Source: Planctomycetaceae bacterium
GTDB lineage: Bacteria > Planctomycetota > Planctomycetia > Planctomycetales > Planctomycetaceae
Length of the DNA stretch: 53,784 nucleotides
Assembly (NCBI GenBank): GCA_021732845.1
Contig: JAKFUF010000019.1
Span: forward strand, 1 to 53,784
Direction: 5' to 3'
Part shown: piece by piece, positions 6,694 through 14,583 of the stretch
Position numbering within the stretch: position 1 is the first letter of the stretch
Layout: each line of letters begins with the position of its first letter
Translations under genes and position numbers: made by a program
The notes under the pieces: model-generated
Told to the model about the DNA's origin: nothing
Seen by the model: only the letters and a program-made list of their open reading frames with translations
Database searches by the model: none

Positions 6694-6876
6694 CGCTTCA
6701 ACGGCGGGTGTGGCACACACGCCGCAAAGGCAATGGCTGCGATGCAAGCCGTGAGCTTGCTCAGTCAGGACCCGGCATTGATGGATGGCCTGGGCACCTT
6801 TGTGGTCGCGGGAACTTTTTTCGGGCTCGGCTGTATAACCTCTCAACGAGAGTTGAATGCGGCAAGGCAGGGCCCA

Positions 6877-7419
6877 ATGAACGAGGACCTTGATGCGATC
6901 CAGCGCGTACTGGCGGACGACATCGAGGCGTTCCGCCGTCTCGTGGAGCGCTACCAGCGACCGCTGTTGACACTGGTCCGCAACCTGACGCCGCCCGACA
7001 CCGACCACGAGGGAGTCGCTCAGGATGTGTTCCTTGCCGCGTTCCGGTGCCTGGCGTCGTTTGACCCAAAGCGGTCGGCGTTCTCGACCTGGCTGTTCAC
7101 CATCGCCCGCAACCGCTGCCTCAACGAACTTGCCCGTCGGCGGCCGGTTGCGGGTGGCGAACTACCCGACGTCGCCGATCTACGATCGCCCGAGAGCGCG
7201 GCCTCGGAAGCGGAACTACTTCGCCAGCTCGACGCGGCCCTGGATGCCCTGCCATTCGAGCAGCGTTCCGCCTTCGTTCTGACGCAGTTGCAAGGCCTTT
7301 CCTACGAGGAAGTCGGTCGAATCGAAGGCGTTGGCGTGGGCACCGTGAAGTCTCGAATCGCCAGGGCCCGTGAAAAACTTCGTAATCTCCTCCGCCACAC
7401 AGTCGAGCCGCACTCATGA
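6877..7419 (+). CDS. ECF-type RNA polymerase sigma factor
   Basis: 180 residues. The sigma-2 region is at about 8-85 (EAFRRLVERYQRPLLTLV, then QDVFLAAFRCLASFDPKRSAFSTWLFTIARNRCLNELARRR). The sigma-4 helix-turn-helix is at about 120-172 (LDALPFEQRSAFVLTQLQGLSYEEVGRIEGVGVGTVKSRIARAREKL). There is no sigma-3 domain, as expected for ECF factors. The start at 6877 is the first Met that gives the standard N-terminus; the open frame upstream is not protein-like. The gene overlaps the following small membrane-protein gene as ATGA, the usual arrangement of an ECF factor with its anti-sigma factor. The target regulon cannot be told from this window. Confidence 0.92.
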   Translation: MNEDLDAIQRVLADDIEAFRRLVERYQRPLLTLVRNLTPPDTDHEGVAQDVFLAAFRCLASFDPKRSAFSTWLFTIARNRCLNELARRRPVAGGELPDVADLRSPESAASEAELLRQLDAALDALPFEQRSAFVLTQLQGLSYEEVGRIEGVGVGTVKSRIARAREKLRNLLRHTVEPHS

Positions 7420-7667: not shown

Positions 7668-8573
7668 TTGAGCATTCCAAACGCTTCCACCCGCAGTCCG
7701 CTGATCGCCGTGATTCTATCGCTCGCCGCCACGGGACTCGGGCAGATCTATTGCGGTCGTATCGCCCGCGGCCTCGTGATGTTTCTGGGCTCGCTGCTGT
7801 TCGCCCCGGCGATCGTGTTGGCGGCCCTGCTGCCGCCGGCAACGATTGTTCTGGTCGGTCTGCTCCTCGCACTGCTGACAGTGCTGGGGGTGTATGTCTT
7901 TGCGGTCGTGGACGCCTTCCGCCTTGCCCGCCGCGGCCGTCACGACTTCCATTCGATGGACTACAACCATCCGCTGGTCTACGCCCTGATTATTCTGGTA
8001 GGACTGACGTACTCGGCCGGGGGATTGTACTTCATCCGCAGCAGCGTCTTCGAGGCATTTTTGATTCCTACCGCCAGCGAGGTGCCGACACTCCTTCCCG
8101 GTGATCGGATCCTCGTGAACAAGATGACTTATCAGAGGCGATTGGTGCGGCGCGGTGACGAGGTGGTGTTTCGCGTGCCATCGCAGCCGGAGTTGCGCTG
8201 GGTCAAGCGTGTCATCGCGCTGTCCGGCGATACCGTCGAAGTGAAGGACAACGAGGTCTTCGTCAACGGGCAGCAATTGTCGCGCACGGCGGCACTCGGT
8301 GCAGCGGCGCAGGCCGTCAATGGGGAGCAGTTCGAGGAAACCAACGCCGGCCGCCGCTATCAAATTTTCCTGGCGGCAGACACCAAGCCGTCGCGGGACT
8401 ACCCCAAGGCGAAGGTGCCTGAAGGGATGTGTTTCATGCTGGGCGACAATCGGAACAATTCGCGCGACAGCCGCACGATGGGCTTCGTGGCCCTGGGGGA
8501 TGTGCTCGGCGACGTGCAGTACAGGCACTGGCCGGCCGCGACGTGGACCCGGTTCGGGTGTCTGACCGAATGA
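7668..8573 (+). CDS. lepB: signal peptidase I with extra N-terminal membrane domain
   Basis: 301 residues; cleaves signal peptides at the outer face of the membrane. Catalytic Ser is S137 in IPTASEVPTLLPGD and the Lys base is K180 in RWVKRVIALSGD; the last box is GDNRNNSRDSR (259-269). The first 125 residues carry about four membrane helices beginning with GLGQIYCGRIARGLVMFLG, which resembles the 'GxGQxYxGxxxKG' start of TM2-like domains, so the protein is a fusion rather than a plain two-helix LepB. The start is a TTG at 7668 behind GAGGAGA (7654-7660), a strong ribosome site that fixes the choice. It lies 24 bases after the putative anti-sigma gene, so it may be expressed with the ECF pair. 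Confidence 0.88.
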   Translation: MSIPNASTRSPLIAVILSLAATGLGQIYCGRIARGLVMFLGSLLFAPAIVLAALLPPATIVLVGLLLALLTVLGVYVFAVVDAFRLARRGRHDFHSMDYNHPLVYALIILVGLTYSAGGLYFIRSSVFEAFLIPTASEVPTLLPGDRILVNKMTYQRRLVRRGDEVVFRVPSQPELRWVKRVIALSGDTVEVKDNEVFVNGQQLSRTAALGAAAQAVNGEQFEETNAGRRYQIFLAADTKPSRDYPKAKVPEGMCFMLGDNRNNSRDSRTMGFVALGDVLGDVQYRHWPAATWTRFGCLTE

Positions 8574-8583
8574 ACACCACCCG

Positions 8584-8697
8584 CCACGGCAGGACTGCCT
8601 CCTTGCATTCCCGCTGGCGGAGCCGGCAAAGGCCGTGGCACACCACCATGCGATGCCTGTCGCCAGTGCCACAGTGCAACAGTGCCACACCCGCCGG
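8584..8697 (+). repeat. dispersed intergenic repeat A, copy 1
   Basis: Two modules lie side by side. Positions 8584-8670 (starting CCACGGCAGGACTGCCTCC) match 14329-14413 in the same orientation with few changes. Positions 8664-8697 (CAGTGCCACAGTGC ... ACACCCGCCGG) are the reverse complement, with one mismatch, of 14190-14223. A third partial trace, GGCGGGTGTGGCAC, is at about 6703. All are intergenic. Confidence 0.8.
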
Positions 8698-8709: not shown

Positions 8710-10305
8710 TCACCTCCTTTGAAAACGCTCCACCCAGGCTGGCTCGATGCGCGATTGGACGGTGACGCGGTGCTTCTTAAGTCTGCGGGCGGTTTCGGCG
8801 ACATTGCCGGTCTGGGCATGGACCAGCGAGCAATACCGCACAATGACTTCGTCCAGCGTGAGGCTTCCCGCGCGGAACTCCGCCACGACCCGATCCAGAG
8901 TTGACGGCTCGACCGTGATTGGTTCGATTTGTCGCGATTTCCCTGCCCCCTGATGGCGCGGCTGCGGATGATATTCGCCGCGGACCATCACACTGCGGAC
9001 GCATTGTTCCAGCTCGCGAAAATTTCCTGGCCAGCCGTAGGCTTGTCCCATTGAAGGTGACTGCCCTATCCATCGAAGCGTCGATTGGGTGAGCCGCCCG
9101 ACGAACTCGGGGAGAGCCTTCTCGCCAAGACAGCGGCCGGCCACATGGGCGACGAGCGGGGCGATTTCCCCGGGTGACGCATCCAGTTGTTCGCGCAGTG
9201 TCGGCGTGCGAATGACATCGGAACAAAGGCGAAAATACAAGTCGGCGCGAAACGTTCCGTCCGCGATCAAGTCAGAGAGATCACGGTTGGTCGCAGCCAC
9301 GACGCGGCCGTCAAACCTGCGGGGTTCCACATCACCCACCCGGTAAAACTCACGATTCTGCAGGACCCGCAACAGCCTCACCTGGACGGACTCCGCCAAT
9401 TCGCCCAGTTCATCCAGGAAAACGGTGTGCCCCCGCTTGCATTTCTCGAACCAGCCCACCCTGTCCTTCGTCGCCCCCGTGAAGGCCCCGGCGACATGTC
9501 CAAACATTTCTGATTCGATCAGATCGCGGGGCATTGCGGAGAGGTTGATGGGATGAAACGCCCCCGCGAATGGTTCTACAAACCGTTCCCGTTTTGGGTC
9601 GAATTCCACAAACCGCGCCAGGCCAATGGCGGTGGCCACAAGTTCCTTGCCTGTGCCGGACGGTCCCAGAATCAATGTCGTGACTTCGTGCATCCGTTCG
9701 TAGAGGAGACTGCCGTAGAGCCGCAATTCGCGAGGAAATATCGAATGCCAGACGGCCGCGCGCAGCCTTGCGACCGGTCGCGACCGGCCTTGGATTAAAC
9801 TCTCCAGCAAAGCCAGCGCGAACCGGTATTGAAAGAACACGGCAAAGGTGTGTTCGGGCCTGGTGTAAAACGGGGAAAACGTCAGTGGGACATCCGTCCA
9901 ACGCTTCATGTCGTCATGCAGGTCACGGAACTGGGGGATCCGCTCTGCGCCTGCCGCAGCCGTGTTGACAATGTTTCCTGATGAGAAATGCCGCAGGTAC
10001 ACCGCCGCGACAATCAGATCCTCATATCGTTCCTGTTCCTCCTGCTGCAAATCGGTGTTCCGAGCCCGCAGCCGCGACTGAAGTTTGAGAAGGAGTGCTT
10101 CGACTCGCCGCGCATGTTCATCCGCGAACGGAAATTCGACTGGATTGTCGATCGGCGGGCGATTGCGCTCCTCTTCCGCGAGCCCAAGGTCAAATGCCGC
10201 CAAGTCTCGACGGACGGTTGTTTGTTCGTCCTCGTCAAACGGATTGGCATATGCCAGACGGTGAATGGCATCGGCGAAGCTTCGTTCGGTTTTGGTGAAG
10301 AGCAT
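8710..10305 (-). CDS. sigma-54-dependent transcriptional activator (bEBP)
   Basis: 531 residues. The N-terminal 190 residues form a domain I do not recognise; there is no receiver, GAF or PAS signature. The AAA+ sigma-54 activation domain follows: Walker A GPSGTGKE (214-221), the sigma-54-contacting loop GAFTGA (273-278), Walker B VFLDEL (295-300), and a sensor region around VVAATNRDL. A Fis-type helix-turn-helix ends the protein (about 499-519, GNVAETARRLKKHRVTVQSRI). All parts needed to open a sigma-54 promoter are present. The gene is divergent from the ceramidase-like gene, and a near-consensus sigma-54 promoter lies between them, which makes that gene its most likely target. The signal read by the N-terminal domain is unknown. 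Confidence 0.92.
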   Translation of the reverse strand: MLFTKTERSFADAIHRLAYANPFDEDEQTTVRRDLAAFDLGLAEEERNRPPIDNPVEFPFADEHARRVEALLLKLQSRLRARNTDLQQEEQERYEDLIVAAVYLRHFSSGNIVNTAAAGAERIPQFRDLHDDMKRWTDVPLTFSPFYTRPEHTFAVFFQYRFALALLESLIQGRSRPVARLRAAVWHSIFPRELRLYGSLLYERMHEVTTLILGPSGTGKELVATAIGLARFVEFDPKRERFVEPFAGAFHPINLSAMPRDLIESEMFGHVAGAFTGATKDRVGWFEKCKRGHTVFLDELGELAESVQVRLLRVLQNREFYRVGDVEPRRFDGRVVAATNRDLSDLIADGTFRADLYFRLCSDVIRTPTLREQLDASPGEIAPLVAHVAGRCLGEKALPEFVGRLTQSTLRWIGQSPSMGQAYGWPGNFRELEQCVRSVMVRGEYHPQPRHQGAGKSRQIEPITVEPSTLDRVVAEFRAGSLTLDEVIVRYCSLVHAQTGNVAETARRLKKHRVTVQSRIEPAWVERFQRR

Positions 10306-10386
10306 CTAACGAAGTGCCAAAAAATCACAGATGGATTGTCAATAAATGTTACCTCACTGCACTTTCTGGACGCTACTCAAAATCTA

Positions 10387-10417
10387 ATGTTTGGCGTTAA
10401 TATTTTATACCAAACAT
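10387..10417. promoter_or_regulatory. inverted repeat, candidate upstream activator site
   Basis: A perfect 8-base inverted repeat, ATGTTTGG at 10387-10394 and CCAAACAT at 10410-10417, with a 15-base AT-rich spacer. It lies about 20-50 bases upstream of the -24 element described next, in the divergent region of the sigma-54 activator. The position is close but reasonable for a bEBP binding site; binding is inferred. Confidence 0.5.
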
Positions 10418-10436
10418 GTTGCGCATCTTTCGAAAT

Positions 10437-10454
10437 TTGGAACAAAGTGTGCTA
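10437..10454 (+). promoter_or_regulatory. sigma-54 (-24/-12) promoter
   Basis: TTGGAACAAAGTGTGCTA keeps the invariant GG and GC dinucleotides ten bases apart and matches the consensus TTGGCACGnnnnTTGCTW at most fixed positions. Predicted transcription start is about 10463, some 50 bases before the ceramidase-like start codon. The spacer is unusually AT-rich for this window. Confidence 0.65.
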
Positions 10455-10513
10455 CGGACACATCAACAGTCGAAGTTTGACAAATCCAAGTGGCTGCCAG
10501 AGGACGAAATCCG

Positions 10514-11152
10514 ATGCAGAATCTGCTGAACATTTATCGAGAACGTGGCATCGATCCAAGCTTCTTGGCGGAGCCGATGAACGCATTCACGAATGCGTCA
10601 TTTCTGCTGGCCGCGCTTGCCGCGTGGTGTCTTGCCAGCCGAACGGGACTGCTGACTGAGAGCACGTGGCTCCTGATCGCGCTGGCGGCTTCGATTGGGT
10701 TTGGGAGCTTCCTGTTTCACACGTGCCCCACGCATGCGACAATGTGGCTGGATGTCATTCCGATCTCGCTGTTTCAAGTCGCCTTCCTCTGGTTGGCCGG
10801 CAGGCACATGCTGCAGCTTCCGGTCGTGGCGGCGATTGGGATGATTGTGGCCGTTGTTGGTCTCTCGTTCGCGGCGCTACCGTTCCACAAGCCACTGAAC
10901 GGTTCACTGTTCTATATCCCGGCCCTGCTGGCCATCGCCGGCATCGGGTTGGCCGTATTTTGCCAGCGCGGCCCGGAACCGTTGCTTTTGCCAATGGCCG
11001 CCGTGGTCTTCGCGATTGCCATCTTCGCCAGAACGATTGACTGGAGCGTGCCCTTTTCCGCCGGAACTCACTTTCTGTGGCACCTGCTGAATGGCCTCGT
11101 GCTCTATCTTTCCATGCGTGCGTGGATTGTCCATCTGGCATTCCGGGCTTGA
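10514..11152 (+). CDS. ceramidase-like (alkaline ceramidase/CREST-type) membrane protein
   Basis: 212 residues with about seven membrane helices. Conserved polar sites of the alkaline ceramidase-type family are visible: E in FLAEPMNAFTNASF near the first helix, SFLFHTCPTHATMWLDVIP in the middle (Ser, His, Asp metal ligands), and HFLWHLLNG near the C-terminus (two His). These match the Ser/Asp/three-His zinc site of the CREST superfamily, so hydrolysis of an amide-linked lipid is plausible; the substrate is not shown. The start at 10514 follows an AGAGGA at about ten bases. The gene stands alone, divergent from the sigma-54 activator and behind a sigma-54-type promoter, suggesting tightly conditional expression. 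Other CREST members (PAQR, Per1) are less likely given the signature words. Confidence 0.78.
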   Translation: MQNLLNIYRERGIDPSFLAEPMNAFTNASFLLAALAAWCLASRTGLLTESTWLLIALAASIGFGSFLFHTCPTHATMWLDVIPISLFQVAFLWLAGRHMLQLPVVAAIGMIVAVVGLSFAALPFHKPLNGSLFYIPALLAIAGIGLAVFCQRGPEPLLLPMAAVVFAIAIFARTIDWSVPFSAGTHFLWHLLNGLVLYLSMRAWIVHLAFRA

Positions 11153-13997: not shown

Positions 13998-14583
13998 GGA
14001 CGATGGTAACAGAGGCAGCGTCCGCTTCGCCGACCGTATGCGACCATTCCTAAAAAAAAGCGAGTGCCGGTTGAGAGGGAGCCAACTGCCAACTGGCAGG
14101 CAATCCTAACCGTACTGTCTGTTAGCTGCTCTGCAGGAAGTACTTTGCAGACATTGCAATTCAATGTCCGTTCCGGCTGCGGTGCTCCACCGGCGGGTGT
14201 GGCACTGTGGCACTGTGGCACTGTCCCACTGGCTTTGCCAGTGTTTCCGAACGGGAGGTGGCTCCAGCACGCGGGATGCACTGGCGGCACGCGGAAACTG
14301 ACAGGTGGGAACGGGCGAATTGCAATTCCCACGGCAGGACTGCCTCCTTGCATTCACGTTGGCGGAGCCGGCAAAGGCTGTGGCACCACCATGTGGTGCC
14401 TGTCGCCCGTGCCGTTCCCAGCCGCCACGCCATCGCCATCGGCATCTTCATTCTTTTCAGCCAGGCAGGCCAAATGTCATTCACCGGCCTGTTCGTGAGA
14501 ACAGGCGAATCATGAATTCTGAGATCTGAGACAGGTCTGAGGCTAGATCGGAAGTGGCATCCAAATGCTTGTTTGGCGGCGGT
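13998..14583. other. repeat-bearing spacer
   Basis: No gene seen. It carries the second copy of dispersed repeat A. It separates the WD40-type gene from the convergent GGEEF regulator gene. Confidence 0.5.
14190..14413 (+). repeat. dispersed intergenic repeat A, copy 2
   Basis: Module 14329-14413 matches 8584-8670 in the same orientation; module 14190-14223, containing GTGGCACTGTGGCACTG, matches 8664-8697 in reverse orientation. The module order and spacing differ from copy 1, so the modules move or recombine separately. Confidence 0.8.

Follow-up and report, generated by a model that had tools for sequence, protein, structure and literature searches.

What does an orphan sigma-54 activator control when it is encoded back to back with a putative membrane hydrolase of the ceramidase type? 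The question is raised by a 53,784-nt stretch of contig JAKFUF010000019.1 (hereafter the window) from a Planctomycetaceae bacterium, whose genome assembly comprises 9.25 Mb, is 95.7% complete and encodes RpoN. A 208-nt spacer (10306-10513) separates two divergent genes, one for a 531-aa sigma-54 activator (bEBP) on the minus strand (8710-10305) and one for a 212-aa hydrolase on the plus strand (10514-11152). The list of open reading frames starts the hydrolase at GTG 10490, but its likely start, judged from the sequence, is ATG 10514. This codon is preferred because a Shine-Dalgarno-like AGAGGA (10499-10504) lies 9 nt before it and because an ortholog aligns from the same methionine. To our knowledge, the control of membrane lipid composition has been little studied in Planctomycetota and their relatives.

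Here we propose, with a probability of about 0.6, a circuit in which the divergent activator works through a sigma-54 promoter on a CREST hydrolase that cleaves a membrane acyl lipid. The helical N-terminal domain of the activator would sense a signal, and the protein would bind upstream DNA, perhaps at a dyad at 10387-10417. The GAFTGA loop of its AAA+ domain would open the RNA polymerase-sigma-54 complex at 10437-10453, and from this promoter the hydrolase, an intramembrane CREST enzyme of the zinc-amidase type, would be transcribed as a single-gene unit. It would in turn cleave a membrane lipid carrying an N-acyl (or other acyl) group, one output among those of a regulator family often found beside envelope-lipid or surface-protein genes. 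A dedicated sigma-54 circuit for the hydrolase had been suggested in an initial annotation of this DNA, and the inferences set out below support it.

The sigma-54 promoter consensus, with its -24 and -12 elements, is YTGGCACGNNNNTTGCW and has 13 specified letters. On the plus strand of the spacer, where a near-consensus promoter had been claimed, TTGGAACAAAGTGTGCT (10437-10453) agrees with 10 of these letters, the GG (10439-10440) and the GC (10451-10452) being separated by 10 nt (GG-N10-GC). Transcription is predicted to start near 10463-10465, about 50 nt before the hydrolase ATG. A site of equal quality in the same direction arises in 69 of 5000 dinucleotide shuffles of the spacer (1.4%), and both strands of the window together hold nine sites of this quality, this one included. 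Such numbers leave room for the pair being chance neighbours, with the activator acting elsewhere or on itself and the hydrolase transcribed from a sigma-70-type promoter; that the pair occurs in two genomes and that the dyad is weak point the same way. The site, modest when taken alone, becomes convincing through comparison with relatives.

Among 59 genomes, a match to the hydrolase was found in three (the window's own, G030 at 68% identity and the remote G051 at 32%), and the activator-hydrolase pair in two, again counting the window's own. G030 is the metagenome-assembled genome (MAG) Planctomycetaceae bacterium D1_Bin_8, which keeps the divergent pair (locus L040) with an activator 54-55% and a hydrolase 68-69% identical to those of the window. 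Its spacer holds GAGGCACGATTTCTGCT, which matches 10 of 13 letters in the correct direction (L040:5021-5037). The two spacers align poorly in MAFFT, which did not line up the promoters; both were located by the consensus scan. The test set beforehand, whether the promoter is present in orthologous loci that keep the pair, thus has one ortholog to draw on, and there pair and promoter occur together.

The promoter recurs more widely in relatives of the activator. The clade of the window's activator (SH-aLRT 98) comprises five loci, the window, L040, L041, L117 and L100, and all five carry a site, with 10, 10, 11, 10 and 12 of 13 letters; under shuffling the mean is 0.195 loci with a site and the maximum 3 (2000 rounds). 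We then extended the count to 107 distinct family loci, each with 250 nt or more of upstream DNA. Sites of at least 10 letters point away from the activator gene in 44 of them and lie on the reverse strand in 4 (shuffle mean 4.0, maximum 8). The corresponding counts are 26 and 1 at 11 letters or more (shuffle mean 0.6), and 6 and 0 at 12 or more. The other 63 loci have no site of at least 10 letters within 300 nt, and among these the nearest upstream open reading frame is sometimes not divergent. As sequence evidence, the promoter and its recurrence across the activator family are solid. The persistence of pair and promoter in G030 despite diverged spacer DNA, the sites in all five clade members and the strong strand asymmetry over 107 loci speak against mere adjacency, which we consider improbable. 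Sigma-54 very probably uses the promoter at 10437-10453, and its activation by the neighbouring activator is only slightly less probable.

Where might the activator bind? The inverted repeat that had been noted before the promoter is present and perfect: ATGTTTGG-N15-CCAAACAT spans 31 bp (10387-10417) with 8-bp arms and ends 19 nt before the promoter, which is close for an activator site. As stand-alone proof of such a site the repeat was rejected, as 178 of 2000 shuffles also hold a perfect 8-bp repeat with a spacer of up to 25. Of the 44 loci with a good promoter, nine contain such a perfect 8-bp repeat, against a mean of 2.95 and a maximum of 9 over 100 rounds of shuffling. Near-perfect 9-bp arms upstream of the relatives exceed shuffles across many spans, about 21-46 bp, so that no single span is singled out, the window's 31 bp included.

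Certain words are enriched near the activator start, although they were picked after the fact from the top of a list and compared with coding DNA, a stretch inside the activator gene. The word AATGTACA occurs in 20 of 108 loci against none in the control stretch, TGTACA in 42 against 5, and GTGCCA, the complement of the -24 element, in 34 against 4. Neither AATGTACA nor TGTACA was found in the window's upstream region. The window's site, if real, is thus a drifted one, and the 31-bp dyad may be this predicted site.

Among known systems, the regulator itself comes closest to the bacterial enhancer-binding proteins (NtrC/PspF class), and the description of it as a sigma-54 activator with GAFTGA holds. 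Its AAA+ sigma-54 interaction core (residues 206-361; 9223-9690, minus strand) matches PF00158 at 157.4 bits, with a Walker A motif GPSGTGK from residue 214 and GAFTGA at residues 273-278. With members of the class, including single-component ones such as NorR, PrpR and RtcR, it shares this core and both motifs, an HTH-like C-terminal end and a divergent target gene with a -24/-12 promoter. The helix-turn-helix had been called Fis-type, a reading that is borne out only in part. An HTH-like region is present at the C-terminus (residues 498-521; 8743-8814, minus strand) and lines up in five aligned sequences, the window's included, but it is not recognised as Fis-type, as the only HTH match up to E 0.1 is to HTH_30, at 17.4 bits below a cut-off of 27.

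Unlike those regulators, this activator carries an N-terminal domain (residues 1-205; 9691-10305, minus strand) without a listed Pfam, NCBIfam or PADLOC match. Residues 1-200 match no listed Pfam or NCBIfam family, in keeping with the earlier description of the domain as unrecognised, and no receiver domain was found in the protein. An RtcR/CARF identity, suggested by PADLOC, was rejected: the RtcR model NF038308 scores 183 bits against a cut-off of 650, and the best stretches of the PADLOC RtcR models lie in residues 206-451 and cover the AAA+ part. More generally, the ntrC, RtcR, NorR and other models have their best stretches in residues 201-451 and stay far under their curated cut-offs. 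AlphaFold2, run with 59 family sequences, predicts an all-helical N-terminal domain (mean pLDDT 88.5, pTM 0.84). A PDB fold search with this model gave no confident match; the best Foldseek E value was 0.69, and VIA-align reached at best Z 5.0, with assorted helical proteins. These weak matches are not evidence of a new fold.

The initial annotation had missed that this activator belongs to a widespread family which, where its neighbours can be recognised, often stands beside VIT/vWA proteins or enzymes that act on lipids. In a sample of 392 genomes from the phylum, a profile of the N-terminal domain finds matches in 46, for 13 of which the match covers just part of the domain; searching GTDB contigs for one peptide pattern gave 78 family loci. 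Carriers fall in Planctomycetota, Acidobacteriota, Verrucomicrobiota, Lentisphaerota, Methylomirabilota, Myxococcota and others, where single odd phyla may be binning errors because most carriers are MAGs. Two carriers with strain numbers are Cerasicoccus arenae KCTC 12870 (L168) and C. frondis NBRC 105381 (L160). Because distinctness was judged by exact identity of a DNA stretch, near-identical loci (such as L119, L121 and L133) and close relatives (L188 with L189, L108 with L115) may count more than once.

The most common recognisable neighbours are VIT/vWA proteins, which form one BLAST cluster of 26 among the 95 open reading frames reading away from the activator. Pfam confirms the assignment for L077 within the cluster and for L167 outside it. 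VIT/vWA proteins of this kind are known from the marine sortase target model TIGR03788, which the L077 protein matches at 243 bits against a cut-off of 551; while they are the commonest outgoing neighbour of the family, none stands beside the window's activator. Further loci with a VIT/vWA neighbour include L084, L089 and L157.

Next in frequency are enzymes that act on lipids: desaturases, acyltransferases, an OlsF-like synthase and P450s. Many of the non-VIT neighbours stand under good -24/-12 sites. Members of the fatty-acid-desaturase family adjoin the activator in L100 and L193, and a Lipid_desat protein in L101 (91 bits against the NCBIfam CarF model, cut-off 500). The OlsF-like synthase is found in L189 (393 bits, cut-off 620) and, by BLAST cluster, in L188. 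In both loci, which come from Opitutia genomes, it is followed by a protein of about 250 aa that by eye is a putative lipoprotein; the L189 copy has no Pfam match. Acyltransferases are represented by PlsC (L183) and MFS-PlsC (L143), and in L110 and L113 the gene after the neighbour encodes an Aas-like tri-domain protein (MFS-PlsC-AMP-binding). A P450 is the neighbour in L117 and the second gene in L100 and L041. Other neighbours are FadB-like (L181), alpha/beta hydrolases (L113, L119), B12 radical-SAM proteins (L108, L115) and FAD oxidases (L110, L112). All matched NCBIfam models stay below cut-off, so these neighbours are resemblances rather than named enzymes. Carotenoids may be among the targets, since the L100 desaturase-family protein has a single, weak NCBIfam match (CrtW, 26.5 bits) and the L117 P450 is similar both to plant carotenoid hydroxylases and to P450 BM3.

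Given the many neighbours of other kinds, the lipid theme amounts to a tendency. These include HemN-like (L039), WD40-like (L041), peptidase S9 (L092), BamE-like (L125) and ACT-domain (L168) proteins, together with the non-lipid or unassigned DUF2157 (L130) and DUF2339 (L079); no family was matched for the neighbours in L042, L095, L134, L142, L144 and L165. As a control we compared both sides of the activator at 50 non-VIT loci with 3.5 kb on either side, the VIT loci being left out by a hand-made list; outgoing genes were taken from the outgoing strand only and controls from either strand. The 70 outgoing proteins include seven with Acyltransferase PF01553, three with AMP-binding, two P450s and two with the OlsB-type Acetyltransf_5. 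None of these four families is among the best 25 of 166 families in the 95 control proteins from the other side, although these 25 extend to families with one member; the lipase-like Esterase PF00756 occurs in 2 of the 95. Calling genes as longest open reading frames lost real ones, such as PlsC of L183 and Lipid_desat of L101. By predicted family, some lipid enzymes are enriched beside the activators.

The two kinds of neighbour were also set against the phylogeny of the regulator. In a quick tree of 109 family members with three outgroup rows on long branches, the VIT and LIPID labels are clustered, with 8 changes each, a number as low being reached in none of 500 shuffles. The labels were set by hand, and 59 rows are unlabelled. 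VIT rows were assigned by BLAST cluster, Pfam (L167) or printed sequence and include the provisional L080 and L118. LIPID rows include borderline alpha/beta hydrolases (L113, L119, L121), FAD oxidases (L110, L112) and B12 radical-SAM genes (L108, L115); in the latter two loci the third gene was judged Aas-type by inspection rather than through Pfam. Neighbours in the window's own clade are ceramidase-like (L040), a P450 (L117), a fatty-acid-desaturase-family protein followed by a P450 (L100) and a WD40-like protein followed by a P450 (L041). None of the P450 homologs encoded elsewhere in the window's genome or in G030 could be assigned a well-placed promoter. L107-L115 and L193 form a separate activator branch of 10 rows (SH-aLRT 99), and the -24/-12 sites of L108, L110, L113 and L115 reach 12-13 of 13 letters.

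What would the window's target gene do? The alkaline-ceramidase-type signature ascribed to it is borne out: the protein matches the ceramidase family PF05875 at 34.8 bits (cut-off 32.5, E 1.5e-8), and the residues of the SxxxH-D-HxxxH pattern are all there. The putative catalytic residues S65, H69, D80, H186 and H190 correspond in kind and local spacing to S77, H81, D92, H217 and H221 of human ACER3 (PMC9436119). In ACER3, mutation of the His and Asp residues abolishes activity and substitution of the Ser strongly lowers it (PMC9436119). With the alkaline ceramidases (ACER1-3, YPC1/YDC1; CREST, PF05875) the hydrolase thus has in common SxxxH, the D at +11 and HxxxH. It differs from them in that it is only 212 aa long, its match stops about halfway along the profile (positions 19-138 of 259), its activity is putative and no serine palmitoyltransferase is seen in the window's genome.

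PF05875 is found in 26 of the 392 genomes of the phylum sample at E 0.001, and above the curated cut-off in 13. The complete pattern lies in one frame in 26 of the 27 PF05875 loci including the window's (25 of the 26 others); in the remaining locus, L219, SxxxH and D are followed by the end of the reading frame. PDB sequence searches with a two-sequence profile of the hydrolase and with its homolog L197 found nothing. A poor structure model built from two sequences (pLDDT 48.5) shows about seven long helices, where an alkaline ceramidase would have seven transmembrane ones, and the hydropathy segments overlap. An LplT-like transporter was considered as an operon partner: in L040 an MFS gene follows 402 nt after the hydrolase, and no MFS gene follows it in the window.

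Residues of this kind do not fix a substrate. CREST members have residues in common and differ in function, and two groups with bacterial members near the ceramidases are described as without substantial functional information (PMC3146951). Under the same sigma-54 control, the protein might therefore be phospholipase-like (Per1-like), receptor-like or hemolysin-III-like rather than an N-acyl-lipid amidase. The Pfam match, only just over cut-off, allows for this, and so do the PlsC-family acyltransferases, the commonest family among neighbours at the 50 non-VIT loci, because an enzyme producing lysophospholipids would need them. That the ceramidase family is the only Pfam match of the protein up to E 0.1 tells the other way, and we regard a CREST activity other than N-acyl-lipid cleavage as somewhat unlikely.

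The initial annotation had suggested turnover of a sphingolipid-like or N-acyl lipid. Cleavage on demand of the cell's own ceramide would suit the PF05875 match and the five alkaline-ceramidase residues. Bacterial ceramide synthase belongs to the FemAB_like family (PF04339), of which the genome has two matches, neither of them with a hit to any NCBIfam model at E 0.0001. Just one alpha-oxoamine synthase in the genome scores strongly, and it is BioF (461.8 bits, cut-off 426); the serine-palmitoyltransferase models reach 320, 313 and 243 bits, far below their cut-offs of 640, 500 and 670. A second alpha-oxoamine synthase match is weak (27 bits), and no serine palmitoyltransferase gene was found in this 95.7% complete genome. 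With BioF alone, de novo sphingolipid synthesis is unlikely unless the gene lies in the unassembled part, and turnover of a self-made sphingolipid is, in our judgement, highly improbable. Elsewhere in the phylum the pathway may be present: the Black Sea data set of one study holds 138 Planctomycetota MAGs with Spt-like proteins (PMC11334938), which lends the sphingolipid reading some background and means that sphingolipid capacity is not unreported in the phylum. Another membrane lipid fits the hydrolase better than a self-made sphingolipid, and other N-acyl lipids, phospholipids or imported ceramide are possible substrates; an OlsB-type PF13444 protein appears in the genome as one weak match (28.8 bits). 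We give somewhat better than even odds to a membrane lipid being the output of the proposed circuit.

Together, this family of regulators and the surface-protein and lipid genes beside it point to a little-known route to on-demand envelope remodelling. A broader proposal, which we hold tentatively and at a little under even odds when all of its parts are taken jointly, is that the family spans phyla, is defined by an undescribed all-helical N-terminal sensor domain and serves specifically to remodel the cell envelope. Each copy would be divergent from a target operon of its own, transcribed from a -24/-12 promoter, many acting via a AATGTACA-type site near the activator start, and the helical domain would sense the state of the membrane or its lipids. 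The target would be a surface protein of the VIT/vWA kind or else an enzyme that modifies lipids: a desaturase, a P450, an Aas-type LplT-PlsC-acyl-ACP synthetase, an OlsF-like aminolipid synthase, a plasmanyl-lipid desaturase or a ceramidase-like amidase. The window would be a variant with a CREST hydrolase as target and a drifted DNA site.

In the open-licence literature on sigma-54 with ceramidases, desaturases or VIT/vWA proteins, we found no report of the activator family; the one paper met for desaturases concerns a ppGpp transcriptome of Pseudomonas syringae. SphR of Pseudomonas is an AraC-type activator, and the ceramidase that it serves is of the neutral class. That sphingosine-responsive system resembles the window's in having a dedicated transcription regulator for a bacterial ceramidase, and differs, according to its abstract, in that its enzyme is secreted and induced by host sphingolipids (PMC5150637). 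The view of sigma-54 as a controller of the bacterial exterior likewise links it to envelope genes, with lipids named in the abstract; its main text lacks the terms 'planctomycet', 'desaturase', 'acyltransferase', 'ceramid' and 'von willebrand' (PMC3162934). A 2025 survey of sigma-54 regulons reports lipid genes as enriched in Clostridia and Bacilli, whereas the functions it ties to Planctomycetia include MscS channels, chaperones and secretion; its main text does not use 'desaturase', 'ceramid' or 'von willebrand' (PMC12316311). If the family governs lipid-acting operons, its promoters and neighbours would offer a direct genomic handle on membrane-remodelling enzymes. The N-terminal domain would then be a candidate new membrane-state sensor, and the bacterial CREST hydrolase would gain a regulatory context for finding its natural substrate.

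The surroundings of the pair show some further features. Just past the 3' end of the activator gene lie a signal peptidase I gene (7668-8573) and, beyond it, a gene for an ECF-type sigma factor of the sigma-70 family (6733-7419). A 58-nt element occurs in two copies that are 95% identical (8584-8641 and 14329-14386); the copies bracket the block of activator, hydrolase and WD40 gene and are possibly a dispersed repeat. A 50-nt repeat is present three times between 19646 and 21253, at 70-100% identity to the reference copy; its copies end in a AAAAAGTATTTTACTGT-like stretch, and two of them extend to 73 nt.
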